Shown in pieces: positions 26,506 to 49,119 of a DNA stretch of 64,000 bases. Source of the DNA: Hymenopellis radicata (Eukaryota; Basidiomycota; Agaricomycetes; Agaricales; Physalacriaceae). The stretch lies in NCBI GenBank assembly GCA_015501595.1, contig JADNRX010000098.1:93624-157623 (forward strand), given 5' to 3'. The notes below the pieces were generated by a model that was not told where the DNA came from, made no database searches, and saw only the letters and a program-made list of their open reading frames with translations. The position numbers were made by a program, and so were the translations under genes. Numbering within the stretch: the stretch's first letter is position 1; the number at the start of each line of letters is the position of its first letter.

Positions 26506-26564
26506 TGGCCAACGTGGGGGTCGAACCCAAGACCTTCGCGTCAAATCAATCCACAGTGGGGGTC
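26506..26564 (-). tRNA. Split tRNA-Ile (AAU), 3' half plus intron remnant
   Basis: Read on the minus strand, 26542-26506 is the 3' exon: anticodon-stem strand CGCGA, B box GGTTCGACCCC and acceptor GTTGGCC with A. Bases 26543-26564 are the 3' part of the intron, ending in GATTTG like the intact paralogue's GGTTTG. The 5' half lies 8.74 kb away at 35303-35342. The gene is interrupted by Ngaro copy 1 and cannot give a normal tRNA. Confidence 0.88.
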
Positions 26565-27178
26565 CCAATCTGATGAACCTGTCGGGGACACGGTAGCCAA
26601 AAAGCCGACCGCCACCGCGGCGGCCGCGAGTATGATTGATGTTCGTAGGGTAAGTGGTACAAGTATGAGGATACGAATACAAACGGGCGGGCGACGAGAA
26701 TACAATACTGGCGTGAAACAGTAAGAGACTGAGCCTAAGAGAAAAAATACAAGAACGCACCTGGCGGGGCACAGTAAGAGCTGAGGGATGCGAGACATCC
26801 TCGGCTGCATACCTAAGCTGCCCGCCAGGTATGGAAATCAACGATCGACCTAAGAGAAAGATGTGGCGCTGAGAGCTGACCACGTCAAAGTCTCGCTGTA
26901 AGCGAGGATAACGTCCCGAAGGCAGAAGAGTCTCACCTGGTTCATTTTGCGACCCGGTGGGTAACGAACCATAAGTACAGCATTTTAGATCTGAAGGATC
27001 TGTAATGAGTACTGTTGGTGAGGATTGCTGTGAGCATGGAAAGCGAAATGGCGTACCTCATATTGGCCTTGAGTAATCAAAAGATTAATCTCGACCAATC
27101 TGATGAACCTGTCGGGGGACACGGTAGCCAAAAAGCCGACCGCCACCGCGGCGGCCGCGAGTATGATTGATGTTCGTA
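26565..27178 (-). repeat. Ngaro copy 1, B1-A2-B2 3' repeat block
   Basis: B units of about 83 bp (CAATCTGATGAACC .. GATGTTCGTA in plus orientation) lie at about 26565-26640 and 27096-27178 and flank the A2 unit. The outer B has small changes from the inner one (one G fewer in GGGGG). B1 and A2 meet directly, reproducing the junction a circular intermediate would have. Confidence 0.85.
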
Positions 27179-27214
27179 AAAGTGGCTAATAAATGAGTCG
27201 GAAGATGATATCAA

Positions 27215-28205
27215 TCATTGTTGGGTTCGGTTGAAGAGTAGTGCCTGTAGGAGAACGGGGTTCTTCCTGATATAAATCTGGAAGGTGTTTGAAGCCCAGC
27301 GTCCCGCAGCCTGAATGAGGTGGGGGGCGCATCCGTCCTCGGCCATCGCTGTCGCTCCTCCAGCTCGCATCGATTGGCCAGCAAATTGTTCGTCTGGCTC
27401 AAGGCGTCGAAGACGCTTCATGAACCAAGTTCGCGTCGGGATCTCGTTCTTTGCTGTCACCCAAAGGAAAGGATTCAGGCGCGAAATCTTGTCACGCGAG
27501 ACGATGTAGCGGCGAAAGACGGGAGCGGGATTGAAATCGCCACGACGGATGATCCGTATCTTGTTGCCCTCGAAGAACCGGTCTGCCTTGTGATATGGTA
27601 GGTCGAAGCCATACCCGTCATCGAACCACGTCACTGTGGACCGGCGCGAACACTTGCGCAGGTCACGGATCGCGACGTTGTCCGGGAGCGACATTTCGCC
27701 AAGACGGAGTAAAGCCATGAAACCCGTTGTCAGCATCGCGGCGAAGAGCAAACTGTCGTGGGAAGCGTTCGGCGGAAGGTCATTGATGGTGGAAAGAATG
27801 TGCTGTCGGGCTAGAGGGAGTTTCCTCTGGATTGGAGTTCCGTACCTCTTCATGCAACCTGACAAAGATCGCGCCACTAAGATTGATTTTCGGTTCGCGC
27901 TGACACCGGGGAAATATGGTTCGAGTTTATTGCAAATCCCGGTTAAGTAGGATGCGACGGAGCGTGGCTTGATGTTCGCGCACATGTAGACAACGTTAGA
28001 ATGATAGAGTGTCGGGTGTTGGTTCGACGGGGAAGTGATGCAGAGTGCAGAAGTTGAGATAAGAGTTCAAGTGGGAGTCGTAAGTCGCACTGGTGGAGAT
28101 GTCGATGGCAAGTCCTAGTGCAATGGCTCTCTCATGGAGAAGCCGTTCGCGGGACCAAGGTTCCCTACGCCGTTGCCTCGGCATCCGCAATTGAACGATC
28201 TTCAT
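27215..28205 (-). pseudogene. Tyrosine recombinase of Ngaro copy 1 (frameshifted)
   Basis: Same protein as the 329-aa recombinase at 44310-45299. An additional T at about 27991 splits it into a 69-aa start (MKIVQLRMPRQRR) and a 256-aa remainder. Catalytic blocks remain readable: LLRLGEM (Arg I), QSMRAGGAT (Arg II block) and GRWASNTFQIYIR with the nucleophile Tyr. Confidence 0.88.
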
Positions 28206-29504
28206 TTTTGTGTTGCCCCCAGCGTAAGTCGAGGAGGTTTAAATGTGTCGATGTATAAGTTCGGCACGAGAGACTGCACGACGTCAAGGTAGTCGCGAGA
28301 GAGGGCGTCCGCTACGGTGTTCAGTTCGCCAGAGATGTGCACGACGCGTAGATCAATATTTGACCGAATACGAATATCGACCGCTGCTTTGAGGATAGGG
28401 TTGTAATCCGGTAGCGCGCGGAGGGTGTCAAAGATGTTGACTGTATTCGTGTTATCAGTAAAAATAGTTAAGCGAGCTGGGCACTCAGGTGTGGCAAAGA
28501 AGGCGAGGTTCGACTGCTCGTACCAGACGAGGGCGCCGAGAACACAGAGCGCCTCCCAAAAGAAGATCTTGTCTCGCATCAAGTCACCCGCAACAGCGCA
28601 CGTGAAACCGAGGTCCATCTCCGGTACCCAAAAACCCATGCTGTCAGAGACGCGTCGCAGAAGATCACCATGTTCGCCTCTGTGAAGGGATTCCAGTCAA
28701 GATTAGCGAAGAAGAACATGCCAGACGAAGCCTCAACATGCTCTTCAAACCATGCCAAATCTTGAACGATCGCCTTGTTAAGGTAAATTGGTGCATGCGA
28801 GCGTTCTTTTCCAGACATTTTGGCGTATATGTTCGATAACGCGGGCTTGAGTAGAGGATAGACGTTCAGCGACCAGTTTATCCAACCGGTCAACTGCTCG
28901 AAGTCGTGGAGCGTCTGGCGTCGACGGGCAACGTGTGCGAATTGGTATACGTGACGGATGAGGTCAGACTTTGAATCGTCCGGAAGAGTCGCTGTCATAG
29001 CGTTCGATCAACGAGGAAGCCGATGATGACGAGAACTTCTCCCCAAACTTGCTTCTTCGCTTTGTGGGGAATGCCGAGCCAATCCCACAGTCGAGAAGTC
29101 GGACTTGATCCGTCGGATAGAATTGCTCGTACGGATCGTACCATGTCATGTCGTCGACTAAGCCTACGCTGTAGCAGTCGTCAACATAACAGCAAAGGAA
29201 GACCATGTTCAGAAGACATATCGCTATCCACACGACAAGACCCATCACCGACGCTCATGCTCTCGGAGAAGCGCGACTTCCGAAACAGGCACGCCAGTCC
29301 ACGTAACGCAACCATGCGGTCTTGTCTGTCTTGCTTTCTCCCACCATGGACGTTACAACCTGCTTCAACTGCCACAACGGATGAACGGGTATCGTTCGAA
29401 ATGCACCCATCACGTCAGCCTTCCAGAGGAGTAATCTCTTGCCAGGATGCAAGCTGGAGAACATCAAAAGTAACGGGATGAAAACGAGGAGAGAGTCCAA
29501 ACGT
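28202..29504 (-). pseudogene. RT/RNase H 3' part of Ngaro copy 1
   Basis: It contains RT catalytic block YVDD (about 29185) and the preceding DVMGAFRTIPVHP block, followed by RNase H blocks FTDNTNTVNIFD and HISGELNTVADALSRD. Three single-base deletions relative to copy 2 break the frame. Its upstream continuation starts at 32819, beyond the nested TIR transposon. Confidence 0.9.
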
Positions 29505-29879
29505 ATGAAACCTGACCAAGGTTTCTTAAGATCCTTCGATCGTGATCGGGATAAGATAAGATTTGTCTTAAGCTCAATCTTATCTTAATAAATATTACCC
29601 CTCCACCTGAACCTACCCTAGTGAGAAGAATGTCTTAAGTTAAAGATGTAAAAAGAATATCTTAAGATGAATTTTAAGATACAATCTTAACTGCAGATAA
29701 ACGGTAAATTTCGTTCGTGTGTTACGAGCATGCCCATGCTAAATAGCACGGGTAGCATTTCGTAGAGCACGAGGATTCACTCATACCTCCCGACAATGTA
29801 ACATTGTAGACAATGTTGCACCACCACAAGGCAATGAGGGAAGGGGGAAGGGATCAAGAAGGGCATTGTGCTTGTTGTT

Positions 29880-30893
29880 ATCGTCGTTCATATGATGAAC
29901 GCCTCGCGTTCTCGTCGTGCTCGATAGCACCCTTCTCTTGCTCAGAGTCGTCATCATCAATATCGTCGGTGCTTGGGCAAAGCATCGCCGGATGGAACAG
30001 AAGCAGCCTCGAAGTGGGAGTCACATTATTCGGGACCCACCGCGGTCGCCACAGCGATGCCAAGGCAATAATAACGGTAGAGATACCTGAAACGACAGTC
30101 AACATCCGCATCGCGATTGGAAGCAAAGGAAAACGTACCCATGGTAGACCTCTACAAGTCCACTATCCGATTTCCGCCTGATGAATCACGACTTGAGCCG
30201 ACGGGGACGAGATCATGTTAGTAATACCAGGGAATGATGTCCGGAAGGCGACAGGCGACAGCTCGCTCAGGTCTAGCGGTGTCGGTTAGTACTGTTGTGT
30301 TGAAGACGGGGTAATGGAAAACATATGAATGAGAATAACACCCCAAGCGCCCTGGATGAAGAACTGCGTAAAGAAGCAGGAGGCGGAGAGGCTGCGCTCG
30401 ATAGTATTAGTAGGCAATATCCAGGCTGGGATCATGCAGCAAGAGATGATGGCGGCGGCTACGATGGCACGACGACGTCTGACGAACTGGGATAGCCAAG
30501 CGATGATCGTTCCACCAACGCAGGCACCAGTGTTCATGAGGATACTAGCACGACTGGAGCTGTCATTGTAGCTGTCCTTCGACGAGTGGGAGTAGTAGTT
30601 GAACCAGGTCATCAAGACGATGCAGTAGACTGAATTGAATACACGTTAGCACGAACGAACACGGACTGTTCAGAACAACGTACACATCATCTTTCACTCC
30701 TTCCTGAAGACCTTCTTGAACGCAGCAGAGTGTGGGCCTCGCTTGCCCGACTTCTTCGCCTCGACGAACTGCCTCGACTCGGGAACAACAGACGGACGAA
30801 TCCGACGGCAATCGAAGCACCAGCGGCTCCCCAGAAAGCAGGGTTAGGGTACGAATCTGGCGCATCACTGTTTTTAGAGCTTCGCAGCCTCAT
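29880..30893 (-). pseudogene. Captured fragment of a Jen1-like carboxylate/MFS transporter
   Basis: On the minus strand, exon-like blocks read PNPAFWGAAGASIAVGFVRLL, then a block with TWFNYYSHSSKDSYN, ASILMNTGACVGGTIIAW and CCMIPAWILPTNTIERSLSA to FFIQGAWGV, then LSPVAFRTSFPGIT. These are the middle to late helices of the Jen1-type lactate/pyruvate permease family. Intron-like gaps lie between blocks, so genomic DNA rather than cDNA was captured. The N-terminal helices are missing and stops occur; not functional. Confidence 0.72.
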
Positions 30894-31796
30894 TCGAGGG
30901 CTTACGCGTCCTAAGGGGCCGTTCTCTTCGTCTCAAAGTCCCACACTCGCCTCCGTGGTGTTGTCGTCGACGACGTGGTCATGGTGAAGGAGTCGCAGTT
31001 GTCGTAATTATCGTGCAACCGTCGGTGTGGTCGTGGTGCCGTTGCCTGTGTCGTGACGAGACCGTGGCATGGTTGTCGGAAGTCGTGGTCTCGGTTGTAG
31101 GCGTGTCGTAGTCGTGGTCTTGCCGTGGTAATTGCGGCGGCGGCTTCATCATAGCAGCCTCGGCGCCATTGTGGTGGGCTTGTCCAAGTGGAAGTTGTCA
31201 ATGTAAGCAAAGACAAAGAGAAAAACACGCGCCTTGAGGACGCCGCCTGCAGCAGACAGCGCGGCGTCGAGTTCATCAGTCCACTACCCTCCGGAGGTCA
31301 CCATCGTCGCAGTTGAAGCTTTGCAGCCTCGTTGGAGGGCTTACGTGTCCTGCGGGGCCGCCGGGGCTCTTCAAGCCCGCGTATCCACGAAAAAAGCATA
31401 AAAAAGAGTTGGATCAAAGAAGAAGGACGCCTGGAAGACCCGCGTCCCATGGTCGGGTCGTCGGCGTCCAGACGTCGCGAGATGGTGACGGTAGAGGGTG
31501 AGATCGAACACACCAAAGTGTCTCGATCACCACCCGGATGATCGGACCGGATCTCTTTGTTGATGCCAAACAAAGCGACTCATCGCGACCATCGCCACCT
31601 CTCAGTCCTCTGTCTCTTACCACCACCATACAGTCTGGCGACGGTGGCTGGACTGCATGTCGCCGCTGTACGACGCGGCAGATGCTCGACTGTATGTCGA
31701 TCGCCTTTCCTTCTATACTCCGCGATATTAGCCACCCACTGCGAGTCGCGACGACGTCCCTCGGGCCTGGGAGGATGGACCTGATAACTTTCAGCT
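30894..31796. other. Unidentified middle part of the nested transposon
   Basis: GC-rich, with a repeated segment (CAGCCTC.TT.GAGGGCTTACG.GTCCT) at about 30888 and 31324. Several chance open frames are present but none is recognised. Further captured DNA may be present. Confidence 0.4.
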
Positions 31797-32140
31797 GTAG
31801 ACTGGACTTCAAAGGTCGCGTCCTTGACCACAAGCACGCTAAGCGCAAGTCTCGTGTTGCCACGAAGGAGGATGCTCAGTTCTACCGTGGAAAGGTGCGT
31901 TTCGGTGGATTGTGATATTGTTGACTGATAGACAGTATACAGCATGTTGCGTACGTCTACAAGGCCAAGCAGGAGATTCAGGGATCCAGAGTGTGAGTGA
32001 TCTGGGAGAGCGTGTCTCTACCCATGCCAGTCTTCGATGCCGGTATGCTCAATTGATTATCCTGCAGACGGGTGGCCCTACACGGCAGCTCTGGTGTCAT
32101 CAAGTCAGAATTTTTACCTTTGGTTAGTTTCCTCGCGATC
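31797..32140 (+). pseudogene. Captured fragment of ribosomal protein eL33 (RPL33/L35A)
   Basis: Reads RLDFKGRVLDHKHAKRKSR, then VATKEDAQFYRGK, a GTGCGT..ACAG intron at 31895-31942, then HVAYVYKAKQEIQGSRV. After a second gap comes HGSSGVIKSEF. This matches eL33 (RLYVKG.., AQFYLGK, AYVYKAK, HGNSGVV) but lacks the LIKIEGV segment and the end. Introns are retained, so it was captured from genomic DNA. Confidence 0.78.
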
Positions 32141-32818
32141 CAGAGTCTTCGATTTTAACGGCTCCACCAACGCCCTAGGACTACTTGGCGCGATGTCTAT
32201 TGCTACCTCGGCGGGAACTTTGGTGCGTTGTTCTCACCCGACTTCATTGACATTTCCTTACCTTCAGCCAGTTTCATTCAATCTGTGGGTTCAAAGCCGG
32301 CTCAACAGTACGCTGTCTCTTGTCCTTTTGGTTTGTTTGGACTGATTATTGCAGTAGGCACGACTTCGGATTGAGCTTGATTGACAACTCGGGCCGGTGA
32401 TAACATTTACGGCGGCGATACCCAGGACAACAAAGATGAACTCTACCCCTCGGCCAGGTGCACTTGCACTATGGCGCTAAGTCGAGGTTGATATGGGACC
32501 GGTGAGTGCGGAACATTCGGACAAAGGTGTGAGCTTAAGATCAGTATCTTAGGATCATTCAACGAGCATCTTAAGACGCATCTAGAGGCAGTTGTCTTAA
32601 GATTGTGCTAGGATACATGATAGATCTGTCTTAAGACACTGAATGATATTGAGCAGTCTATGTAGATAATATCAAGTTGTATCTTAAGATTGTTTGAACC
32701 CTATCTGTATGTGGAATAGCCTGAAAAATGGGCCTTGTTGAAAGTTAAGACTTCAGACAGATCTTATCTTATCCCGGTCACGATCGGGAGATCTTAAGAA
32801 AAGTCTGTCATGGTTTTG

Positions 32819-34862
32819 CAAACGTGCGCCCTTCGTTTGAGACTTGTCCACCATGTTGTTTTGACAATATTCTCCCGCAGATTAATTCGCGACGAGGCGG
32901 AGATCGTCTGAGTGAGGTTTGGGAACAGCAATATTGGGCGTGCTGTACATGCCTGGAAGTAGGTGTGGGCCGAACGCTGGTGAGTGTTGACCCTTGTCTA
33001 CTTCTTCTATGCATTGCGCCGCAATAAACTGACTCTCCTCAGTTGACGGGATCTTTGCCCACGCGTTGTCCCACGTTTCTGGAAAATCGCTCGATGGATT
33101 CGTGTCGGCTCATGGCCATAACCCGATTTTCAATGTTCGAACGACGGAGGCGACGAACGCTCGATTCGGATGTATGGCTAGAGCGCTTGCGAAACGATCT
33201 ATATTGATCGGAGTGGAAACGTGGAAAAGGTGAGGATTTTCATGGATAGTTTTCATAGCTACATGATGGTACTCTTTTTCAGGTGGGTGCAGAAGAGGTT
33301 CGTCTACTTCCGTGAACCACGCCGTTCGACTGCCTTGCGGGGCCGCGTTCCTCCATCCGAAACCCCTCAGGTAGCGTGGCAGGAAGGATCCGAAGCCACT
33401 CTCTTTTTCATCCTCCACACGACTCTCTTCAATGTCTTCTATTTCCTCATCTTCCCCTCCTCCACCTGCGAAATGACGCGCCGCGTGCCACAGGCTTGCC
33501 ACGAAGGAAGAGCTAGTCGAGGACTCAGCTGCTTTTCGGTTTACACAAGGTGACGACGTGCGGTCCTTCGCAGGAGCTGCAGACATGGCGTCTGGAACAA
33601 GCGCTACGGAAGCACTTCCCCTCGTTCCAGTTGTTGCAGATCTCTCGCTCTCGCTTCTTTGCCAATTTTGTTCTCGCAGATTTTGCGCTCCCACCTGTGC
33701 CTCCAATATCATTGTACCGAACGCCGTCTCTGTCGAGGAAAGCTCGCTGGAGTTTCGTGATCTCGGGGGCGTTGTACTGATTGAAGAGGATGGCTGGGTT
33801 CGACCCGATAACTTTGCGAGCGGCGATGTCGTACGCAATGACTCGGGCATGGGAATCTTCGACCTTGGACGTGAAGAGGTCGTCGATGTGCTCTCGCCAG
33901 GCTCGGAGTTCGTTCGTCCGGTAAGGGAAGATTGTCTCGACTGCCTTGACATACTTATCAAAGCATCTAAACCAGACGACTGACGAACTAACAGTCTTCT
34001 TCTCCGCGCTTCGTCCCAAGGCTTTGTGAAGTGCCGATTCGACCGTACTGACTGGAGTGGGGTCGAGGTCGAGTTTGGTGGAGAAGAAGAAAGCGTTGAT
34101 CTCGTCGAAGTCGACGACTTGATCAAGGAGGATTTTCTTCCAGAGAGCTTCAGGGAAGACGGGGGCGAGTCCTGTGCGCAAAAGGTTGTGCAAGGTGTAC
34201 TTGACGTCGCGTCTGTGATTTTCGACGGCGTCGCGGATTTTCTTGTGCTCAGCTGAGAGAACGACTTCTTGGACGACGGCGGCGGCGGCCCATCCGAAGA
34301 GATTGTCGTCTGGTACATCGCCATCATTGGACTCGCGAGCGTGGTGGTGTTTGCGAGGAGGTTTGGACTTGGGTTTGTCGTCTCCTCCACTCTCATATTC
34401 TGAGAGCGAACTATTGGAATTGGGTGTCTCTGCCCGTTTGCGTTTAACTCCGGGTTTGACACTCTCTTCGTGGTCATCACCGTCCTCTTCCTCGTCGACG
34501 GTCTCTTCTCCTCCGGATACGTCATCGTCATCTTTTCGCGACTTTCCCAACTCTTTCCCTCGTTGCTTGGCTCGCTCGAGACGTCTAGCGTCGCTCTCGA
34601 GTTGCTCGAACCACGGCTTGAGCTCGTTACGTCCGCTGAAGTCGTACAGTCCGGCTTCGGAAACACCGCCGATGTAGGCAACGACTGTGGTTTGAACGTC
34701 AACTTTGGACGCCCGTCCCTCACGGTATCGACTGACGATCTCTTCGAGGGTTTTCCGTACAGCTTCGCAATACTGCTCCTCCATGAGTTCTGAGTCAGGG
34801 ATGTCAGGGATAGAACAGTCTCCGGCTTTTCGCTTTTTGCTGCCTTCGGCATGTCCGGGCAT
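32819..34862 (-). pseudogene. gag and pol 5' part of Ngaro copy 1, in two overlapping frames
   Basis: The gag frame runs from ATG 34862 to a stop at 33525 (445 aa): acidic/basic low-complexity N-terminus, a helical core, and a C-terminal zinc-binding block ICNNWNEGKC..CSRRHVCSSC..HVVTLC. A second frame (+1) is open from ATG 34852, only ten bases downstream. It continues through the whole gag region into the pol frame (PPEKEYHHVAMK, INIDRFASAL) until 33110, and the transposon at 32818 cuts pol further on. Copy 2 has one C fewer at the equivalent of 33617-33620, which fuses the two. Confidence 0.82.
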
Positions 34863-34899
34863 AATCGTATGAGTCGTTAGATGGAAATTTATTTCGCAA

Positions 34900-35302
34900 A
34901 CGACGAGAATACAATACTGGCGTGAAACAGTAAGAGACTGAGCCTAAGAGAAAAAATACAAGAACGCACCTGGCGGGGCACAGTAAGAGCTGAGGGATGC
35001 GAGACATCCTCGGCTGCATACCTAAGCTGCCCGCCAGGTATGGAAATCAACGATCGACCTAAGAGAAAGATGTGGCGCTGAGAGCTGACCACGTCAAAGT
35101 CTCGCTGTAAGTGAGGATAACGTCCCGAAGGCAGAAGAGTCTCACCTGGTTCATTTTGCGACCCGGTGGGTAACGAACCATAAGTACAGCATTTTAGATC
35201 CGAAGGATCTGTAATGAGTACTGTTGGTGAGGATGCTGTGAGCATGGAAAGCGAAATGGCGTACCTCATATTGGCCTTGAGTAATCAAAAGATTAATCTC
35301 GA
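34900..35302 (-). repeat. Ngaro copy 1, repeat A1 (5' terminal)
   Basis: About 403 bp, nearly identical to A2 at about 26692-27095 and to the A repeats of copy 2. It starts with TCGAGATTAATC next to the tRNA 5' half and contains the start region upstream of gag. Confidence 0.88.
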
Positions 35303-35342
35303 AATATTAGCACGACGCTCTAACCAACTGAGCTAGTCGGCC
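35303..35342 (-). tRNA. Split tRNA-Ile (AAU), 5' half
   Basis: On the minus strand: GGCCGACTAGCTCAGTTGG with the rest of the A box, then GCGTCGTGCTAATAT, ending one base into the intron, where the Ngaro 5' terminus begins. TGTGGCGCA lies about 12 bases upstream. Partner 3' half at 26506-26564. Confidence 0.88.
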
Positions 35343-35455
35343 ATGCAAGTTTGTGCGCCACACTATTGGCGCTGGGCCGCTCGCCCTAGACACATGTAGG
35401 TTGCGGAATGATGCATGCAAAGACTCTGTTGAAGTTGGATTATCATGCATCATGA

Positions 35456-38530: not shown

Positions 38531-38926
38531 AAAAGCTAGTGAGCTACACACACCAAGCTGGATTTTCTCAGAGTCGAAAGGATTCCAAAGGTATTTTTGG
38601 TGTTGAACACGTTAACAAGGGTTTGCCAACATGATGGTCGGCAGTACTTAAGAAATAGTGATGGCACGTGGTCGAGCGGCAGCAAGCCAAGTGACGGATT
38701 CTCTGTACAGTAACGATTCCGTATTCAAAGTTGTGCTAACATATATGTCGAAAGTAATATGTTCAAGACATAGATAGTGGCTGTGGAGAAGGAACAGATC
38801 CCGTTGCCCGTCCATGTCCAAGTTGTAGGACGAAAGACATTGAAATACTCCTGTAATATACGGATTCAGAAAAAGTCCTCCACTATCATGAGATCTCTAC
38901 CTCCAAGGTGTTGTTAAACGCACAAG

Positions 38927-40655
38927 TCAACTGGGCACTGCGAAAACCACCTTACTGCCTCCAGCGCTTTCAGTTAAATCGGACGTGACCCGTATAGCGA
39001 GGTCCATTCCATCGTCAACCAGGGCATTGAAGATAAACCTTTCCGCTCCATTGAAGATATCCGAGACGATCCAAGCATCCCGATATATGCTTCGGGACAT
39101 CAGATGCCGCGCCTGCACAGTAAAGTGGCATGTCTTAAGCCTTGCCAAGCCAACCGAAGAAGACCCTTTCCAGCGCGCCTTGACCATGGAAGCAAAGCTG
39201 CCAACACGCCCAAAATATAGTAGGCTGGATGGATCACGGTGATTATACACTCGAATGATGAGAGACGAAAGGAGGGGGAGGAAAGTGACAGTTTTCCTCC
39301 GTATAACCTTGAGGGATTCCACGATGGCCGCTATTTGTTCCCGGTCGTTAACACCCGTTTGATTGTCAAATTCCTGCAGGGATACAACGAGGTCGAGGAA
39401 AGTAAGACTACGTGTCTGGGAAAGGAGAGAATGGAGGGTACGGTCCGATGAGGCAGCAAGTGGCACACTAGCAAGCGAAAGGCTGGTGAGAGCACTCAAA
39501 GCATTGGAACGAATGAGGAGTTGTTTAAATAAATACAGGACATCGTAGTGAGCCATGTCAGGGTTAGGATGAAGGGAAGCCTCCCGTAGACAAGGAAGCG
39601 TGAGAGCATCGATGACGCGCACCGACATGGTATCGAGCTTGCGCACATTTGAGCAGGTGGTTGGGGTGTAGGGCGATTCGGCCTCGTCGTCTTCCAAGTA
39701 CCAGTAAGGTACAGAGAGGGTCTCAAGAGATGTACACAGTCCAATCAAATGCATACATGCCCTGAGGTCGTCGCCTTCGCGGTCCATACCAGAAAGGTCT
39801 AGCTCCGTAATCTGGTCCCACGGAAATTCGACGACCGGCGGGCTTTCACCAAGACTCAGTTTCGTAAGACGAGGACAATCATTGAAAACTGATTGCTCCT
39901 TCGGCTCTATCTGAACACGCTCAAGGTTTTAGACACTGAAGACGAGGAAGCCGATTATGGAGTGGCGCGTAGAGCATCTTTAAACCCCTCCCCAATCTGA
40001 CAAATGTAACACCCGCCACCGGTGCGATTCTGCCAGGACGATGTCGAGGATGCGCTTTTAGGATGGAGGGATCAGGGTTGGGTTTCGGACTATAGAGAGA
40101 TACATCTAGTGGACCCTGACGGGAACGCTGAATGACTGTCTCCAAACGCTGCACATCTCCTTCGTGATGCGCCGCTTGCGGAAAACGAAGAGCCATAGTC
40201 GACCAAAACGAATGAAGGGATAAAGCGACGTTTCGCCAGCTCTGGCAGACGTGGCTAAGCCGCCATATGGACCCAGACGCATCAAAGGCGTTTGAATCGG
40301 AGGCGCTAGAAAGCGTGTACAGAAATATTTCCGACCAAATTTCCAAGGGGAGAGTGCGATGCAGGGAAATGAGGTTGGTGTACTTCTTCTGAACGTTTAT
40401 CAACCTCTGTCGTTCGTCTTCCATTGACCTGATGACCTCGTGAAGGGTTGCGACTTTGGAATCAATGCATGATATTTCGTCGGAGACAGTGGATAAGATG
40501 GTGTGTCGTATGTGGGAGATCTCCTCATCCGTTGCTGGGAGGTTCGAGGTACGGAGCCGTTCAAGGAGCACAGAGCTCTGGTACTCCTCTTCGTGATGGA
40601 GACTCCGTCTTGTGAAAGCACCACAATTGGTGCATTGGGACACAGTCTGCGGCAT
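38927..40655 (-). pseudogene. F-box protein 2, inverted copy with frameshift
   Basis: Starts MPQTVSQCTNCGAFTRRS at 40655, with the F-box LPLEIWSEIFLYTL .. LSHVCQSWRNVALSLHSFW intact. Frame is lost at about 40050 (SILKAHPRHRP instead of SILKRILDIVL) and a stop follows at 39921. The second half (MDREGDDLRACMHLIGLC to the C-terminal LVDDGMDLAIRV and the stop at 38927) is open again from about 39787. A short deletion lies between. About 80-85 percent similar to 13977-15713 by eye. Confidence 0.8.
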
Positions 40656-40999
40656 GCCGAACGCAAACTGATTTGAAAACTAAAAATAAAAAATGGTAAG
40701 AACGCGTTTTCGAGAGGGCGTCAATACGCACCTGGATGACCTACAAGATATCAAGAATTCCCGCACTGATAAACGACCTTGGTGGGCGCGTCGGAGAGCC
40801 CAATGACGCGGCTGATGGTGGTGGTGGTTTGGAGGAAACCTTTGCGATCGACTACATACCAATCAGTACGTAACTTGGTGCGCAACACAAGGTGCTATTT
40901 ACCTACTCGCATGCAATGGAACTTTATACATTACAATACAGAAATATGTCGACAAGAAGATCAAAACGAAAGATACAAAGGTACGGACATTCAACTAAA

Positions 41000-41684
41000 A
41001 AATCGGGGTGCGGCTCAACTACCTCATCAGCTGCAGACAACATATAATAGCTCGGCAACGTCGCCAGGAGCTTGCTCAGATACCACATCCCCTCCCCCCG
41101 TCGTCGCCACCACGCCGGGCCATCTGGACACACGTACCCTCCAGTCTCATGCCTACCTTTAATACCGCTGCAGTCTCATCCTCCACTAGGATCACGTGCA
41201 CGATATCATCTTTCCACGGGTTATGTGCACCCAAAGCCGAGCCCTCGTCTTCTGCCAGAACGTGCCCTTTGGAAGTCTCCTCAATGATAGGATGATTTAC
41301 CCGGGCGTCGGGCCACGGACTGAGGACAACCTTAGAAAACTTGCTCGAAAGCTCTGACGACGCCGCATCAGCGGGATGAACAGCCGTGACGCGCCGGGTA
41401 GAGCTTTCGACGACGCCAGTGGTATGAGTGACGCTGAGAATGGGAGCTGTCGCTCCCAGCAACGTAGAAAGGGTCTTCTCCGCGGGAAGTTTCCAATCCG
41501 TCGTTGGAATGCCCCATCCACCGTCCTCTGCATCGACATTATCCTCCACTACATCCTTCACAGCAGCAATCTCTACGTCGATGCTAACAAATTCGACACC
41601 TTGCTCCTGGAGGGATTTCGTAAACGCGTCCTCTTCCGGAGTGACTTTGGACGAGAACGAAGCCGAGAGTGCGTGATGGAAATA
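41000..41684 (-). pseudogene. Arb1-like gene, C-terminal fragment
   Basis: Reads ALSASFSSKVTPEEDAFTKS, then GGWGIPTTDWKLPAEKTLSTL, LLGATAPILSVTHTTGVVES, LSPWPDARVNHP and HNPWKDD. Its middle block agrees with the Arb1 family better than the left copy, which has three small deletions there. The 5' half of the gene is missing: at 41684 the sequence switches to an F-box gene on the other strand. Relative to the left arm, about 1.65 kb (11250-12900) is deleted. Confidence 0.6.
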
Positions 41685-43058
41685 TTCCAGCACGCTTGCG
41701 CCCATGATGCATGGGACGACACCTTCTACTACACAAAACCTCATTGGGCTATACCTCACGTCTGCAGGGAATGGCGTCGCGTCGCATTATCCTGCCCGCC
41801 CCTCTGGTCATCCATTCATGCATTTCTGAGGCCAACTTCCTTCCCTGCTATTCCCGCTCTGGATGCAACATCGTTCAGGAACACGCCCTCTAACCGTGAG
41901 ACTCGTCAACTACGAATATCATGACCATCCTCATGTACGAGACGTTCTTGGACACATCCGAGCGCAATCGTGGCGCTGGCGCGCTCTACAGATAAATGTT
42001 GCCTACACCGCCGTCGAAGACACGCTTGAATTTTTGCGTGGTAGCTATCCTCTTCTTGACCGATTAGACATTGATGTTGGAAAGTGCTTTTCCTCCGACG
42101 CGTTTCCCGACTTCCAGAGAACCGGTTTCTCCCAGTATCCGAATTTGCGAACTGTCGTCCTTCAGGATCCACTAATCACCGAGATGGAGCACAACTCACT
42201 ACACTGATAATCACCGATAGATTTAGGGGTGCTTTACTGTGGTATACTGAAGCTTTTCGACAATGTCCGTCTTTGCAGAGACTCCAGGTCGATTTTGCCG
42301 CGCGACTCGAGGGCGTGTCGTCAGTGGTACCCCTTCGCGCCCTCAAAAGTCTTGATACTGCTTTCGACGCTGTCATAATGAATCACATCGTGGTGCCTCA
42401 GTTAGAGGAAGCACGCCTTGGGGTCGACTATCCCGGAGACTATAACGAGGGGGTCCTGGACAGTACCATTCCTCCGTTTTATAAACTGGTCCTGCGATCG
42501 AATTGCGCATTGACTATCACCTCCCTACGTCTGAGGAAGATTCCGGTCTCGGAGGACCTGATCGCTCTTCTCTCACTCACCCAGAATCTCGCGACGCTCG
42601 AAATCCGCGCAAGAATGTCCCATTTGAATTTCGGCGGTACCCCCGACGCCGCGGGCATGAAGACCATCATGACTCTCGTCTCCATGCTTCAGGTCACAAA
42701 CCCGCCCTTCCTTCCCAAACTGCGCCATCTTTCCATCAACCTCTCCAAGCATTTGGACAGGCGGTATTTCCCGTATCTTGAAAAGCAGGACAAGCTTGTC
42801 AAAGCCCTGCAGTCGCGATGGAATGTGGGAAGCGGTTCGGGTGTGGAAAAGCTGAGGATGTTTAGGTTTGGGATATTTGCGCAGCGCTTGGATGACAAGG
42901 ATTCGGCACCCAGCGATTCACCGTTAGAGTTGGACCCGGAGACGGAAGAGGCGCTGCAGGTTTTGATGAATGATGGAATGAAGATTTCGATTCGGGTATA
43001 CAGTAAATTCGCCAGGCATGACGCGGAGCATGTCAGAGTCAATTTTGGCAACATGTAG
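41684..43058 (+). pseudogene. F-box protein 5, 5'-truncated with two frameshifts
   Basis: The CxxC and coiled N-terminal part are missing; the sequence begins inside the F-box (VMEIFQHACAHDAWDD, ALSCPPLWSSIHAF). It moves to a second frame near 41890 (ALQINVAYTAVEDTLEFL) and a third near 42200 (LQRLQVDFAARLEG). The last frame then stays open through the LRR part to the family motif LMNDGMKISIRVYSKF and the stop at 43056. Homologous to the relic at 10130-11525. Confidence 0.75.
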
Positions 43059-43209
43059 AGATTCAGAATAGCAAAGGAGTATCCAGCTTTCTCGTAGGAA
43101 TGGAGATTTGCATATTTGTTAAGACATTGTCTAGTGCTTGGGGAGTAGGGGTTATAGTTAAGCTTAGGGTGGCAAAAGATAGGTTTTGGCCAAATTCCAT
43201 TATTCCAAA

Positions 43210-43531
43210 TAGGGTGGTGAAGTAAACCCTAGGTTTTGATACACCTCGGGTTTACTGCGGTTATTAACAGTATTGATACGGTATTGAAACCCTGGGGGGT
43301 CAGTAGGTAGGTTTCGATACCGGCACGTGACTGTTCACGTGCCGGTGCGCAGGCGCTGAAACAAGCGGGACAAAGGCGGTCTGAGGGCGGTGCGCCACTG
43401 CGCCACATCACGTGGCCATAGTCACGTGCCGGTATCGAAACCGTTACTAACGGTTTCAAAACCAGAGGCTCCCGGGGGGTCGGTATCAATACCGTTACTA
43501 ACACCCCCCGGAGGTTTACTGTGCCACCCTA
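43210..43531. mobile_element. hAT-type MITE (322 bp)
   Basis: Ends TAGGGTGGTGAAGTAAACC and, inverted, TAGGGTGGCACAGTAAACC. The exact 8-bp target duplication ATTCCAAA lies at 43202-43209 and 43532-43539. The interior has palindromic CACGTG-rich and TATTAAC-type segments and no coding capacity. It lies in the 3' flank of the split tRNA-Ile and is absent from the matching left-arm flank. Confidence 0.88.
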
Positions 43532-43607
43532 ATTCCAAATTTCCAATTAAAAACTTAGAGAGCTTGAAAAAGTTCTCAAGCAAAAAAGAACAAGATTCAA
43601 ACGGCAA

Positions 43608-43657
43608 TGGCCAACGTGGGGATCGAACCCAAGACCTTCGTGTTAACACTTGTCAGC
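43608..43657 (-). tRNA. Split tRNA-Ile (AAU), 3' half plus intron remnant
   Basis: On the minus strand the 3' exon reads A, CACGA, AGGTCTTGGGTTCGATCCCC and acceptor GTTGGCC with A (about 43645-43608). Its CACGA strand pairs fully with TCGTG of the 5' half, whereas the other copies have CGCGA with one wobble pair. Bases 43646-43657 are the intron remnant (ends AGTGTTA, like the intact paralogue's GGTGTTA). Confidence 0.88.
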
Positions 43658-44272
43658 CCAATCTGATGAACCTGTCGGGGGACACGGTAGCCAAAAAGCC
43701 GACCGCCACCGCGGCGGCCGCGAGTATGATTGATGTTCGTAGGGTAAGTGGTACAAGTATGAGGATACGAATACAAACGGGCGGGCGACGAGAATACAAT
43801 ACTGGCGTGAAACAGTAAGAGACTGAGCCTAAGAGAAAAAAAATACAAGAACGCACCTGGCGGGGCACAGTAAGAGCTGAGGGATGCGAGACATCCTCGG
43901 CTGCATACCTAAGCTGCCCGCCAGGTATGGAAATCAACGATCGACCTAAGAGAAAGATGTGGCGCTGAGAGCTGACCACATCAAAGTCTCGCTGTAAGCG
44001 AGGATAACGTCCCGAAGGCAGAAGAGTCTCACCTGGTTCATTTTGCGACCCGGTGGGTAACGAACCATAAGTACAGCATTTTAGATCCGAAGGATCTGTA
44101 ATGAGTACTGTTGGTGAGGATGCTGTGAGCATGGAAAGCGAAATGGCGTACCTCATATTGGCCTTGAGTAATCAAAAGATTAATCTCGACCAATCTGATG
44201 AACCTGTCGGGGGACACGGTAGCCAAAAAGCCGACCGCCACCGCGGCGGCCGCGAGTATGATTGATGTTCGT
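43658..44272 (-). repeat. Ngaro copy 2, B1-A2-B2 3' repeat block
   Basis: B units 44190-44272 and 43658-43740 are about 83 bp and virtually identical. A2 43786-44189 is 404 bp and matches A1 at 48676-49079. The GC-rich B unit contains a CCGCCACCGCGGCGG inverted repeat. The B1/A2 join reads CAGATTGG|TCGAG on the element strand. Confidence 0.9.
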
Positions 44273-44309
44273 AAAAATGGCTAATAAATGAGTCGGAAGA
44301 TGATATCAA

Positions 44310-45299
44310 TCATTGTTGGGTTCGGTTGAAGAGTAGTGCCTGTAGGAGAACGGGGTTCTTCCTGATATAAATCTGGAAGGTGTTTGAAGCCCAGCGTCCC
44401 GCAGCCTGAATGAGGTGGGGGGCGCATCCGTCCTCGGCCATCGCTGTCGCTCCTCCAGCTCGCATCGATTGGCCAGCAAATTGTTCGTCTGGCTCAAGGC
44501 GTCGAAGACGCTTCATGAACCAAGTTCGCGTCGGGATCTCGTTCTTTGCTGTCACCCAAAGGAAAGGATTCAGGCGCGAAATCTTGTCACGCGAGACGAT
44601 GTAGCGGCGAAAGACGGGAGCGGGATTGAAATCGCCACGACGGATGATCCGTATCTTGTTGCCCTCGAAGAACCGGTCTGCCTTGTGATATGGTAGGTCG
44701 AAGCCATACCCGTCATCGAACCACGTCACTGTGGACCGGCGCGAACACTTGCGCAGGTCACGGATCGCGACGTTGTCCGGGAGCGACATTTCGCCAAGAC
44801 GGAGTAAAGCCATGAAACCCGTTGTCAGCATCGCGGCGAAGAGCAAACTGTCGTGGGAAGCGTTCGGCGGAAGGTCATTGATGGTGGAAAGAATGTGCTG
44901 TCGGGCTAGAGGGAGTTTCCTCTGGATTGGAGTTCCGTACCTCTTCATGCAACCTGACAAAGATCGCGCCACTAAGATTGATTTTCGGTTCGCGCTGACA
45001 CCGGGGAAATATGGTTCGAGTTTATTGCAAATCCCGGTTAAGTAGGATGCGACGGAGCGTGGCTTGATGTTCGCGCACATGTAGACAACGTAGAATGATA
45101 GAGTGTCGGGTGTTGGTTCGACGGGGAAGTGATGCAGAGTGCAGAAGTTGAGATAAGAGTTCAAGTGGGAGTCGTAAGTCGCACTGGTGGAGATGTCGAT
45201 GGCAAGTCCTAGTGCAATGGCTCTCTCATGGAGAAGCCGTTCGCGGGACCAAGGTTCCCTACGCCGTTGCCTCGGCATCCGCAATTGAACGATCTTCAT
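44310..45299 (-). CDS. Tyrosine recombinase of Ngaro copy 2 (329 aa)
   Basis: Integrates the circular cDNA by site-specific strand exchange. The frame is complete from ATG 45299 to 44310. N-terminal SAM-like helical part: basic start MKIVQLRMPRQRRREPW, then STSATYDSHLNSYLNFC. Catalytic half: TGFMALLRLGEMSLPD with Arg I, a K-containing beta region (LPYHKADRFFEGNKIRI), QSMRAGGATAMAEDG with Arg II (the usual His two or three before it is Gln here), GRWASN (Trp at the His/Trp position) and FQIYIRKNP with the nucleophile Tyr. It starts within the pol stop codon (ATGA), suggesting coupled reinitiation. The likely determinant of tRNA-Ile targeting. Confidence 0.92.
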   Translation of the reverse strand: MKIVQLRMPRQRRREPWSRERLLHERAIALGLAIDISTSATYDSHLNSYLNFCTLHHFPVEPTPDTLSFYVVYMCANIKPRSVASYLTGICNKLEPYFPGVSANRKSILVARSLSGCMKRYGTPIQRKLPLARQHILSTINDLPPNASHDSLLFAAMLTTGFMALLRLGEMSLPDNVAIRDLRKCSRRSTVTWFDDGYGFDLPYHKADRFFEGNKIRIIRRGDFNPAPVFRRYIVSRDKISRLNPFLWVTAKNEIPTRTWFMKRLRRLEPDEQFAGQSMRAGGATAMAEDGCAPHLIQAAGRWASNTFQIYIRKNPVLLQALLFNRTQQ

Positions 45300-48200
45300 T
45301 TTTGTGTTGCCCCCAGCGTAAGTCGAGGGGGTTTAAATGTGTCGATGTATAAGTTCGGCACGAGAGACTGCACGACGTCAAGGTAGTCGCGAGAGAGGGC
45401 GTCCGCTACGGTGTTCAGTTCGCCAGAGATGTGCACGACGCGTAGATCAATATTTGACCGAATACGAATATCGACCGCTGCTTTGAGGATAGGGTTGTAA
45501 TCCGGTAGCGCGCGGAGGGTGTCAAAGATGTTGACTGTATTCGTGTTATCAGTAAAAATAGTTAAGCGAGCTGGGCACTCAGGTGTGGCAAAGAAGGCGA
45601 GGTTCGACTGCTCGTACCAGACGAGGGCGCCGAGAACACAGAGCGCCTCCCAAAAGAAGATCTTGTCTCGCATCAAGTCACCCGCAACAGCGCACGTGAA
45701 ACCGAGGTCCATCTCCGGTACCCAAAAACCCATGCCTGTCAGAGACGCGTCGCAGAAGATCACCATGTTCGCCTCTGTGAAGGGATTCCAGTCAAGATTA
45801 GCGAAGAAGAACATGCCAGACGAAGCCTCAACATGCTCTTCAAACCATGCCAAATCTTGAACGATCGCCTTGTTAAGGTAAATTGGTGCATGCGAGCGTT
45901 CTTTTCCAGACATTTTGGCGTATATGTTCGATAACGCGGGCTTGAGTAGAGGATAGACATTCAGCGACCAGTTTATCCAACCGGTCAACTGCTCGAAGTC
46001 GTGGAGCGTCTGGCGTCGACGGGCAACGTGTGCGAATTGGTGTACGTGACGGATGAGGTCAGACTTTGAATCGTCCGGAAGAGTCGCTGTCATAGCGTTC
46101 GGATCAACGAGGAAGCCGATGATGACGAGAACTTCTCCCCAAACTTGCTTCTTCGCTTTGTGGGGAATGCCGAGCCAATCCCACAGTCGAAGAAGTCGGA
46201 CTTGATCCGTCGGATAGAATTGCTCGTACGGATCGTACCATGTCATGTCGTCGACTAAGCCTACGCTGTAGCAGTCATCAACATAACAGCAAAGGAAGAC
46301 CATGTTCAGAAGACATATCGCTATCCACACGACAAGACCCATCACCGACGCCCATGCTCTCGGAGAAGCGCGACTTCCGAAACAGGCACGCCAGTCCACG
46401 TAACGCAACCATGCGGTCTTGTCTGTCTTGCTTTCTCCCACCATGGACGTTACAACCTGCTTCAACTGCCACAACGGATGAACGGGTATCGTTCGAAACG
46501 CGCCCATCACGTCGGCCTTCCAGAGGAGTAATCTCTTGCCAGGATGCAAGCTGGAGAACATCAAAAGTAACGGGATGAAAACGAGGAGAGAGTCCAAACG
46601 TGCGCCCTTCGTTTGAGACTTGTCCACCATGTTGTTTTGACAATATTCTCCCGCAGATTGATTCGCGACGAGGCGGAGATCGTCTGAGTGAGGTTTGGGA
46701 ACAGCAATATTGGGCGTGCTGTACATGCCTGGAAGTAGGTGTGGGCCGAACGCTGGTGAGTGTTGACCCTTGTCTACTTCTTCTATGCATTGCGCCGCAA
46801 TAAACTGACTCTCCTCAGTTGACGGGATCTTTGCCCACGCGTTGTCCCACGTTTCTGGAAAATCGCTCGATGGATTCGTGTCGGCCCATGGCCATAACCC
46901 GATTTTCAATGTTCGAACGACGGAGGCGACGAACGCTCGATTCGGATGTATGGCTAGAGCGCTCGCGAAACGATCTATATTGATCGGAGTGGAAACGTGG
47001 AAAAGGTGAGGATTTTCATGGATAGTTTTCATAGCTACATGATGGTACTCTTTTTCAGGTGGGTGCAGAAGAGGTTCGTCTACTTCCGTGAACCACGCCG
47101 TTCGACTGCCTTGCAGGGCCGCGTTCCTCCATCCGAAACCCCTCAGGTAGCGTGGCAGGAAGGATCCGAAGCCACTCTCTTTTTCATCCTCCACACGACT
47201 CTCTTCAATGTCTTCTATTTCCTCATCTTCCCCTCCTCCACCTGCGAAATGACGCGCCGCGTGCCACAGGCTTGCCACGAAGGAAGAGCTAGTCGAGGAC
47301 TCAGCTGCTTTTCGGTTTACACAAGGTGACGACGTGCGGTCCTTCGCAGGAGCTGCAGACATGGCGTCTGGAACAAGCGCTACGGAAGCACTTCCCTCGT
47401 TCCAGTTGTTGCAGATCTCTCGCTCTCGCTTCTTTGCCAATTTTGTTCTCGCAGATTTTGCGCTCCCACCTGTGCCTCCAATATCATTGTACCGAACGCC
47501 GTCTCTGTCGAGGAAAGCTCGCTGGAGTTTCGTGATCTCGGGGGCGTTGTACTGATTGAAGAGGATGGCTGGGTTCGACCCGATAACTTTGCGAGCGGCG
47601 ATGTCGTACGCAATGACTCGGGCATGGGAATCTTCGACCTTGGACGTGAAGAGGTCGTCGATGTGCTCTCGCCAGGCTCGGAGTTCGTTCGTCCGGTAAG
47701 GGAAGATTGTCTCGACTGCCTTGACATACTTATCAAAGCATCTAAACCAGACGACTGACGAACTAACAGTCTTCTTCTCCGCGCTTCGTCCCAAGGCTTT
47801 GTGAAGTGCCGATTCGACCGTACTGACTGGAGTGGGGTCGAGGTCGAGTTTGGTGGAGAAGAAGAAAGCGTTGATCTCGTCGAAGTCGACGACTTGATCA
47901 AGGAGGATTTTCTTCCAGAGAGCTTCAGGGAAGACGGGAGCGAGTCCTGTGCGCAAAAGGTTGTGCAAGGTGTACTTGACGTCGCGTCTGTGATTTTCGA
48001 CGGCGTCGCGGATTTTCTTGTGCTCAGCTGAGAGAACGACTTCTTGGACGACGGCGGCGGCGGCCCATCCGAAGAGATTGTCGTCTGGTACATCGCCATC
48101 GTTGGACTCGCGAGCGTGGTGGTGTTTGCGAGGAGGTTTGGACTTGGGTTTGTCGTCTCCTCCACTCTCATATTCTGAGAGCGAACTATTGGAATTGGGT

Positions 48201-48637
48201 GTCTCTGCCCGTTTGCGTTTAACTCCGGGTTTGACACTCTCTTCGTGGTCATCACCGTCCTCTTCCTCGTCGACGGTCTCTTCTCCTCCAGATACGTCGT
48301 CGTCATCTTTTCGCGACTTTCCCAACTCTTTCCCTCGTTGCTTGGCTCGCTCGAGACGTCTAGCGTCGCTCTCGAGTTGCTCGAACCACGGCTTGAGCTC
48401 GTTACGTCCGCTGAAGTCGTACAGTCCGGCTTCGGAAACACCGCCGATGTAGGCAACGACCGTGGTTTGAACGTCAACTTTGGACGCTCGTCCCTCACGG
48501 TATCGACTGACGATCTCTTCGAGGGTTTTCCGTACAGCTTCGCAATACTGCTCCTCCGTGAGTTCTGAGTCAGGGATGTCAGGGATAGAACAGTCTCCGG
48601 CTTTTCGCTTTTTGCTGCCTTCGGCATGTCCGGGCAT
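45296..48637 (-). CDS. Gag-RT-RNase H polyprotein of Ngaro copy 2 (1113 aa)
   Basis: Starts at ATG 48637 (MPGHAEGSKKRKAGD). Residues 1-415 are the gag region with a D/E/K-rich stretch. At about residue 415 a one-C deficit relative to copy 1 (CCC instead of CCCC, about 47395) moves translation from the gag to the pol frame. This loses the gag zinc-binding tail and fuses the proteins. RT blocks: KADVMGAFRTIPVHP (about 705), FGSRASPRAW, YVDD (about 784). RNase H blocks: VIFCDASLTGMGF, FFWEALCVLGALVW, FTDNTNTVNIFD, HISGELNTVADALSRD. Copies the element's RNA into DNA. Its stop overlaps the recombinase start (ATGA). Whether the fusion is natural or a sequencing artefact is open. Confidence 0.9.
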   Translation of the reverse strand: MPGHAEGSKKRKAGDCSIPDIPDSELTEEQYCEAVRKTLEEIVSRYREGRASKVDVQTTVVAYIGGVSEAGLYDFSGRNELKPWFEQLESDARRLERAKQRGKELGKSRKDDDDVSGGEETVDEEEDGDDHEESVKPGVKRKRAETPNSNSSLSEYESGGDDKPKSKPPRKHHHARESNDGDVPDDNLFGWAAAAVVQEVVLSAEHKKIRDAVENHRRDVKYTLHNLLRTGLAPVFPEALWKKILLDQVVDFDEINAFFFSTKLDLDPTPVSTVESALHKALGRSAEKKTVSSSVVWFRCFDKYVKAVETIFPYRTNELRAWREHIDDLFTSKVEDSHARVIAYDIAARKVIGSNPAILFNQYNAPEITKLQRAFLDRDGVRYNDIGGTGGSAKSARTKLAKKREREICNNWNEGSASVALVPDAMSAAPAKDRTSSPCVNRKAAESSTSSSFVASLWHAARHFAGGGGEDEEIEDIEESRVEDEKESGFGSFLPRYLRGFGWRNAALQGSRTAWFTEVDEPLLHPPEKEYHHVAMKTIHENPHLFHVSTPINIDRFASALAIHPNRAFVASVVRTLKIGLWPWADTNPSSDFPETWDNAWAKIPSTEESQFIAAQCIEEVDKGQHSPAFGPHLLPGMYSTPNIAVPKPHSDDLRLVANQSAGEYCQNNMVDKSQTKGARLDSLLVFIPLLLMFSSLHPGKRLLLWKADVMGAFRTIPVHPLWQLKQVVTSMVGESKTDKTAWLRYVDWRACFGSRASPRAWASVMGLVVWIAICLLNMVFLCCYVDDCYSVGLVDDMTWYDPYEQFYPTDQVRLLRLWDWLGIPHKAKKQVWGEVLVIIGFLVDPNAMTATLPDDSKSDLIRHVHQFAHVARRRQTLHDFEQLTGWINWSLNVYPLLKPALSNIYAKMSGKERSHAPIYLNKAIVQDLAWFEEHVEASSGMFFFANLDWNPFTEANMVIFCDASLTGMGFWVPEMDLGFTCAVAGDLMRDKIFFWEALCVLGALVWYEQSNLAFFATPECPARLTIFTDNTNTVNIFDTLRALPDYNPILKAAVDIRIRSNIDLRVVHISGELNTVADALSRDYLDVVQSLVPNLYIDTFKPPRLTLGATQK

Positions 48638-48675
48638 AATCGTATGAGTCGTTAGATGGAAATTTATTTCGCAAA

Positions 48676-49079
48676 CGACGAGAATACAATACTGGCGTGA
48701 AACAGTAAGAGACTGAGCCTAAGAGAAAAAAAATACAAGAACGCACCTGGCGGGGCACAGTAAGAGCTGAGGGATGCGAGACATCCTCGGCTGCATACCT
48801 AAGCTGCCCGCCAGGTATGGAAATCAACGATCGACCTAAGAGAAAGATGTGGCGCTGAGAGCTGACCACATCAAAGTCTCGCTGTAAGCGAGGATAACGT
48901 CCCGAAGGCAGAAGAGTCTCACCTGGTTCATTTTGCGACCCGGTGGGTAACGAACCATAAGTACAGCATTTTAGATCCGAAGGATCTGTAATGAGTACTG
49001 TTGGTGAGGATGCTGTGAGCATGGAAAGCGAAATGGCGTACCTCATATTGGCCTTGAGTAATCAAAAGATTAATCTCGA
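48676..49079 (-). repeat. Ngaro copy 2, repeat A1 (5' terminal)
   Basis: 404 bp, matches 43786-44189. Begins TCGAGATTAATC directly after the tRNA 5' half. Probably holds the element's own promoter and 5' UTR upstream of gag. Confidence 0.9.
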
Positions 49080-49119
49080 AGTATTAGCACGACGCTCTAA
49101 CCAGCTGAGCTAGTCGGCC
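49080..49119 (-). tRNA. Split tRNA-Ile (AAU), 5' half
   Basis: On the minus strand GGCCGACTAGCTCAGCTGG with the rest of the A box, then GCGTCGTGCTAATAC, ending one base into the intron. GTGTGGCGCA lies about 20 bases upstream as at the uninterrupted partner 9925. Partner 3' half at 43608-43657, 5.4 kb away. Confidence 0.88.

Follow-up and report, generated by a model that had tools for sequence, protein, structure and literature searches.

This study concerns a 64,000-nucleotide stretch of the genome of Hymenopellis radicata, a member of the agaric family Physalacriaceae (GCA_015501595.1, contig JADNRX010000098.1; C1384:93624-157623), referred to here as the window, in which two Ngaro retrotransposons occupy the introns of two different genes for an isoleucine transfer RNA (tRNA), tRNA-Ile(AAU), on the minus strand. 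Read along the tRNA, the gene split by copy 2 consists of the 5' exon (49082..49119, delimited by paralog comparison), the first two intron bases CT (49080..49081), the 5,422-bp element (43658..49079), the remaining 14 nt of host intron (43644..43657) and the 3' exon (43608..43643), all on the minus strand. The gene split by copy 1 is laid out in the same way and on the same strand, with the 5' exon at 35305..35342, the intron bases TT at 35303..35304, the element at 26565..35302 (carrying a nested insertion and with broken pol and recombinase frames), 23 nt of remaining intron at 26542..26564 and the 3' exon at 26506..26541. Two uninterrupted tRNA-Ile(AAU) genes lie on the plus strand at 9925..10010 (12-nt intron) and 19334..19430 (23-nt intron); ARAGORN run without introns mislabels them as Cys and Asp, respectively. 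An earlier interpretation made from the letters of the window (the sequence-only reading) had described these two elements and two intact paralogs, and re-reading of the coordinates confirmed all four. The motif GTGCTAATAY occurs 5 times in the window against 0.11 expected by shuffling, with no tRNA found around the occurrence at 23173. It had also placed the insertions one base into the intron. However, the element ends are defined by the internal B1|A2 junction (CAGATTGG|TCGAGATT), and therefore both insertions lie after the second intron base (CTAATA|TT| for copy 1 and CTAATA|CT| for copy 2).

Copy 2 has the order A1-gag-RT/RNase H-YR-B1-A2-B2, all on the minus strand. The A1 repeat (48676..49079) is followed by an open reading frame (ORF) of 1113 aa for gag and a predicted reverse transcriptase (RT)-RNase H (45296..48637), an ORF of 329 aa for a predicted tyrosine recombinase (YR) with a Cre-like fold (44310..45299), the B1 repeat (44190..44273), the A2 repeat (43786..44189) and, at the right end, the B2 repeat (43658..43741); A1 and A2 (404 bp) are 100% identical, as are B1 and B2 (84 bp). 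The arrangement A-pol-B-A-B is that given for Ngaro elements in the available portion of a fungal survey (PMC3783388). The AlphaFold2 (AF2) model of the 329-aa ORF (pLDDT 80.7) matches Cre in Foldseek (E 1.5e-10), and a profile search retrieves Cre chains (best E 1.1e-4). With Pfam, the window protein fell under the cut-off and its homolog P0086 just over it, and no match was obtained for the 3 further YR homologs scanned. The AF2 model of residues 560-1113 of the longer ORF (pLDDT 86.3) matches RT-RNase H structures (E 5.7e-17); by sequence only, the Pfam match is weak and a profile search retrieved no solved structure. No methyltransferase domain was matched by Pfam at E up to 0.1 in either ORF, and this, together with terminal repeats that are direct and not inverted, separates copy 2 from DIRS. 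By sequence and modelled structure, the two elements are Ngaro-type retrotransposons, and the ends of the family are fixed at ATTGG|TCGAG. Two variants of this arrangement were seen elsewhere: a copy at C585:205100-205471 has an additional, internally shortened A-B unit beyond B2, and at C469:91400-92800 (L086) two elements of different Ngaro families are directly joined, right end to left end, as though one had integrated at the end of the other.

Copies 1 and 2 are 98.9-99.2% identical across their common parts, lie on the same contig and sit at the same base of their host genes, all of which would fit a single insertion followed by duplication or gene conversion to a second tRNA-Ile gene. 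However, alignment shows that homology between the two loci stops at most 4 bases from the tRNA gene ends, the 2-kb host flanks have one 15-bp word in common 3' of the genes and nothing 5' of them, and the host introns differ on either side of the elements. Additionally, of the two elements only copy 1 carries the nested insertion. Duplication or conversion is exceedingly unlikely in the light of these data, and because the flanks are unrelated and the introns different, copies 1 and 2 are evidently two independent insertions at separate loci, as the sequence-only reading had maintained.

The nested element of copy 1 (29504..32819, approximate bounds, minus strand, ~3.3 kb) sits in pol, has imperfect terminal inverted repeats of about 60 bp and is accompanied by a 7-bp ACGTTTG duplication; the YR frame of this copy is also interrupted. 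The identical nested insertion, at the same base, was found in Ngaro copies on C21 and C722 (L062, L068) at different host sites, with a 100% match across the 145 and 84 bases read. Because the same nested insertion occurs in copies at other places, the composite probably moved as one unit, presumably in trans.

The assembly searched genome-wide comprises 75.5 Mb in 1,405 contigs. In what is called here the main family, with ends about 95-99% identical to those of copy 2, 17 distinct events had at least one readable end, and the host junctions read place 8 of them inside tRNA genes, 2 near a tRNA gene and 7 in neither position. The events inside are the two tRNA-Ile(AAU) introns; three tRNA-Gly(GCC) introns (C696:166k, C1395 and C696:180k, after intron bases 9, 20 and 10), in all of which the element is oriented opposite to the tRNA; tRNA-Asp(GTC) after nt 11, in the D-stem (C752); a tRNA-like 5' half after nt 22, in the D-loop (C1387, left end only, type not assigned); and an untyped tRNA, hit in its anticodon loop or intron (C347), for which Rfam recognises the paralogs at C457 and C91 as tRNAs. 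The two C752 junctions are 22 kb apart and no element was found in the stretch between them; the match between the tRNA-Asp halves is the reason for treating them as a single copy that contains nested DNA. The two events nearby are at C722, 58 bp from the 3' end of a tRNA that ARAGORN labels Phe(aaa) and manual reading gives as Leu(AAG) (right end only), and at C1023, 83 bp from the 5' end of a tRNA-Asp (left end only). The remaining seven (C21, C585, C629, C976, C1338, C464 and C496) were read over flanks of about 150 to 850 bases. The C21 copy terminates within a repeat bearing B-box-like letters, which was counted as not tRNA; neither Rfam (E up to 5, run on paralog L129) nor ARAGORN called a tRNA there. 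Repeats of this tRNA-like kind, with A- and B-box-like letters, are present at C879:1982-2010 and just upstream (L060), at C485:358842 and at C21:4391, and were unscored by Rfam in the member tested (L129).

Sister families, defined by 52-80% YR identity, gave 11 counted events. One of these is inside a tRNA gene (tRNA-Glu after nt 24, C1018) and two are near one (C523, 13 bp from tRNA-Arg, and C469, 29 bp from tRNA-Ala), while C963, at 396 bp from tRNA-Cys, was counted as not near and no tRNA was seen at C202, C782, C674, C505:77k, C999, C629:216k and C47=C774, the last four being read on the right side only. In a distant Ngaro lineage of about 35% YR identity, the 7 distinct right flanks that are intact (38-113 bases) showed no tRNA. 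Across all families, the inside hits (9/9) are 5' of the B box or T-arm at varying positions, and in the main family 5 or 6 are in the intron; flank hits fall on either side of the gene. The inside sites of the main family cover at least 4 tRNA kinds, in both orientations and at variable positions.

These events were collected from a YR protein search (119 matches, best 30 fetched) and a search with the A2B2 end (57 matches), each giving a lower bound on copies. From the distant lineage, 12 loci were fetched, of which 8 had an intact right end and 7 were distinct (L098=L106); L100, L102, L103 and L105 had lost the right end and were not counted. Loci that had no readable host end or were not inspected were excluded before counting. 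They comprise the YR loci L051, L055, L057, L060, L065 and C709 (L110), the end-repeat matches C1179, C1118, C469:116679, C498 and C369:8025 and, beyond the best 30, all YR matches except C47, C774, C709, C752:92743 and the 12 distant-lineage loci. Where copies shared a flank, they were entered as a single event (the two C585 copies with C241, C464 with C73, and C47 with C774), and the second element of the C469 tandem was left out. Left ends were searched for, and none found, for C460, C539, C999, C505:77k, the second C469 element and C963.

Two-sided insertion sites could be rejoined in script in 14 cases (7 in a tRNA body, 6 away from tRNA genes, and C523). ARAGORN called a tRNA at 7/7 of the rejoined tRNA-body sites and at 0/6 of those away from tRNA genes; the call at C523 was the neighbouring tRNA-Arg. 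The labels for the rejoined Ile, Asp and C1395 sites were shifted or wrong, and types were assigned from paralogs. The rejoined Ile sites gave tRNAs with a 25-nt or 16-nt intron under the shifted anticodon 'Asn(att)', while the intronless paralog L007 was labelled Ile(aat). The 16-nt intron formed by the host pieces of copy 2 is of a length also present in paralogs, and this insertion probably neither gained nor lost anything at the target. The tRNA-Glu empty site (GGCTAACA|TTGCCGCC) is identical to intact paralogs around the junction, and the tRNA-Asp empty site (TCTCTGATAGT|ATAT-GG) equals paralog L114 save one base beside the site. Where an empty paralog permits comparison (Glu, Asp and Ile copy 2), neither target-site duplication nor loss was seen, which is what would be expected of a tyrosine recombinase. 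Repeats are prone to misassembly and the assembly is a draft of 1,405 contigs, and the split genes might for that reason be taken for assembly chimeras. However, joining the flanks again yields tRNA genes that resemble paralogs, for several kinds of tRNA, and the pattern recurs on several contigs, which makes a chimera hardly conceivable. The similarity of host GGGTCGA to the circle core GGTCGA raised the alternative that the element itself had generated the short stretches of host sequence in the Gly introns. This was ruled out, since the introns of intact Gly paralogs span the same range of lengths and rejoining of the Ile, Asp and Glu sites gives sequence resembling that of paralogs.

The sequence-only reading attributed the two insertions to a sequence-specific target in tRNA-Ile, that is, strict integration at CTAATA|Y. 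Both Ile insertions (2/2) are indeed at the same base. However, the tRNA-Ile-type junction exists only 2 times in the 75.5-Mb assembly, allowing up to 2 mismatches, and 16 of the 18 tRNA-Ile(AAU) genes found genome-wide (with at most 1 mismatch) are intact. Related copies are instead found in Gly introns, after three different bases and in the opposite orientation, in the D-arm region of Asp and Glu, and in another tRNA-like 5' half. As a general rule of the family the strict tRNA-Ile site is refuted, and strict site-specific integration is a very unlikely account of these insertions. The part of the targeting claim that held up is a preference linked to tRNA genes in general, with 8/17 main-family events inside them. 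The sequence-only reading had also named a majority of copies in unrelated sequence as the result that would speak against targeting; in the main family 7/17 are away from tRNA genes, short of a majority, whereas in the sister families 8/11 are.

Some further features of the target genes were observed. TGTGGCGCA begins 20-26 bp upstream of 13/18 tRNA-Ile(AAU) genes on the same strand and is found 11 times in the window against 0.46 expected (e.g. at 9899, 19314, 35354 and 49137; also at loci L003-L020); it is possibly an upstream promoter element for RNA polymerase III (Pol III). There are 26 intact tRNA-Gly(GCC) genes compared with 3 split ones. The introns of tRNA-Ile(AAU) and tRNA-Gly(GCC) are hypervariable between paralogs, being absent or 10-26 nt long with little common sequence in many pairs, and the exons are nearly identical. 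Four of the insertions in tRNA genes or adjoining them have a common repeat (167-235 bp matches, 83-93% identical) at a distance of roughly 100-540 bp (at about 43365-43533 of the window and in the flanks of C1395, C523 and C1018), which is a possible second tRNA-associated repeat.

Direct recognition, in which the recombinase reads a DNA sequence or fold common to tRNA genes, as bacterial tRNA-targeting integrases do, would account for the identical base at the two Ile sites and for the sole common sequence noticed, a weak T-W-N-W left of the insertion at 9/14 two-sided sites. There, T is at -4 in 11/14, A/T at -3 in 13/14 and A/T at -1 in 13/14; the motif was picked after the sites had been viewed, and its P value of 1.5e-8 is thus exploratory. 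When a target sequence common to all sites was tested for, none was found, and the sites vary among Ile, Gly, Asp, Glu and other tRNAs, in both orientations and at different positions in hypervariable introns. Direct recognition is accordingly quite doubtful as the basis of the preference.

The strength of the preference was estimated with an assumed tRNA gene number of 500, 1,000 or, generously, 2,877, the last being the number of first-look Rfam candidates (63 scored); all values given here use 2,877. The 8/17 main-family events inside tRNA genes correspond to P 7e-16; this and the following P values are to be read as guides, since independence is incomplete among insertions of a single family. 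Without the two seed copies of the window the figures are 6/15 and P 1.1e-11, without the seeds and C1387 they are 5/15 and P 1.8e-9, and without the seeds, C1387 and C347 they are 4/15 and P 2.3e-7, the denominators being left unchanged when one-junction cases were removed, which is slightly conservative. Within 100 bp of or inside a tRNA gene are 10/17 main-family events and 13/28 events of all families (P 1.5e-18). Compared with elsewhere in the genome, insertions are enriched 110- to 130-fold inside tRNA genes.

Such a preference could be passive if the recombinase enters any open DNA, since transcribed tRNA genes are nucleosome-free and their redundancy would aid survivorship. Several insertions lie beside tRNA genes (at 13, 29, 58 and 83 bp) and 7/17 lie elsewhere, the site motif is weak, and all of this is compatible with passive entry. 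However, other open or neutral DNA should be far commoner than tRNA genes, which sits badly with the enrichment inside them, and survivorship alone would be hard to reconcile with such enrichment over neutral intergenic DNA. The distant Ngaro lineage, which has the same architecture, also gave no tRNA in its small sample of flanks. Passive preference is therefore unlikely, and choice of the locus by Pol III factors bound to the gene appears a better explanation than open chromatin. The data taken together make it quite probable that this Ngaro family integrates preferentially into tRNA genes of H. radicata, presumably using a weak site and choosing the locus through Pol III factors.

Several points weigh against this conclusion. 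Events more than 100 bp from any detected tRNA gene make up 15/28 of those counted (7/17 main, 8/11 sister), and because of them insertion into tRNA genes is a bias and not a rule. The true number of tRNA genes may differ from the numbers assumed. The 22-nt tRNA 5' half at C1387 was recognised by eye only, from acceptor and D-arm letters, and no paralog was found for it within one mismatch; C347 is likewise a one-junction case, read at its right end only. The position of 9/9 inside hits 5' of the T-arm has P 0.045 under simple assumptions and with small position counts, and the control from the distant lineage consists of 7 flanks of 38-113 bases. Finally, one genome was surveyed, and the collected copies are lower bounds.

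A possible mechanism would begin with reverse transcription to a circle with a B-A junction, which the Cre-like recombinase would join to a short, degenerate chromosomal site. The recombinase or Gag could find the locus by touching Pol III factors (TFIIIC/TFIIIB) that already occupy the DNA. The B box is the main TFIIIC contact. Bound factors may shield the B box while leaving the interval from the A box to the B box open to insertion. A tRNA gene split in this way is probably nonfunctional, with its boxes several kb apart and a T4 run in the first 20 bases of the element, and its loss would be tolerable because these tRNAs have many copies. There is about an even chance of the more specific proposal that a YR retrotransposon evolved Pol III-directed integration between the A and B boxes with a Cre-like enzyme needing only a 4-base degenerate site, in convergence with Ty3/TRE, Dada and the prokaryotic tRNA-integrating elements.

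Target choice by YR retrotransposons has been little studied in the portion of the literature surveyed. The H. radicata family provides recent insertions whose empty sites can be read and, in the same genome, a distant lineage without sign of the bias, albeit in a small sample. If the choice is indeed protein-guided, a partner could steer a Cre-like recombinase to a genomic address, and this would bear on Pol III biology and on genome engineering. Integrative elements of bacteria and archaea also use a tyrosine recombinase with a tRNA gene as target, and they rely on sequence identity and restore the tRNA gene. Unlike in those elements, the H. radicata tRNA gene stays split, and no tRNA piece was seen carried by the element.

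The following comparisons draw on the available portions of the papers cited. The retrotransposons Ty3, DGLT-A, TRE5/TRE3 and Skipper-2 likewise prefer tRNA genes, and Ty3 and TRE5-A have been linked to TFIIIB, but these dictyostelid and yeast elements insert beside the tRNA gene (PMC5006619), whereas the H. radicata family has many insertions inside it. DIRS-1 is also a YR retrotransposon and inserts into DIRS-1, somewhat like the C469 tandem, but it has inverted terminal repeats and forms centromeric clusters, not insertions in tRNA genes (PMC5006619). Dada DNA transposons use the same two regions as the H. radicata elements (PMC8869645). However, they belong to a different enzyme class and make target-site duplications, which were not seen at the H. 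radicata sites compared with empty paralogs, and related Dada lineages use similar target sequences, whereas no such similarity was seen in the H. radicata family (PMC8869645).

As for Ngaro itself, the sequence-only reading knew of no tRNA-intron targeting, and in agreement with this the literature searched on Ngaro, DIRS and YR elements, in which subscription journals and preprints were thinly covered, yielded no account of a YR retrotransposon that targets tRNA genes. The available portions of PMC12220804 and PMC3212892 hold nothing on Ngaro in tRNA genes, and the terms tRNA, target and insertion site are absent from the main text of the fungal Ngaro survey (PMC3783388). In Cafeteria, Ngaro types differ in their integration preference for endogenous virophages, and ORF1/Gag is suspected, according to the part of that paper covered (PMC8547959). 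The H. radicata family resembles the fungal (PMC3783388) and Cafeteria (PMC8547959) Ngaro elements, as far as those accounts were available, in its A-pol-B-A-B repeats, gag, RT-RNase H and YR, and the feature that sets it apart from those elements is its preference for tRNA genes.

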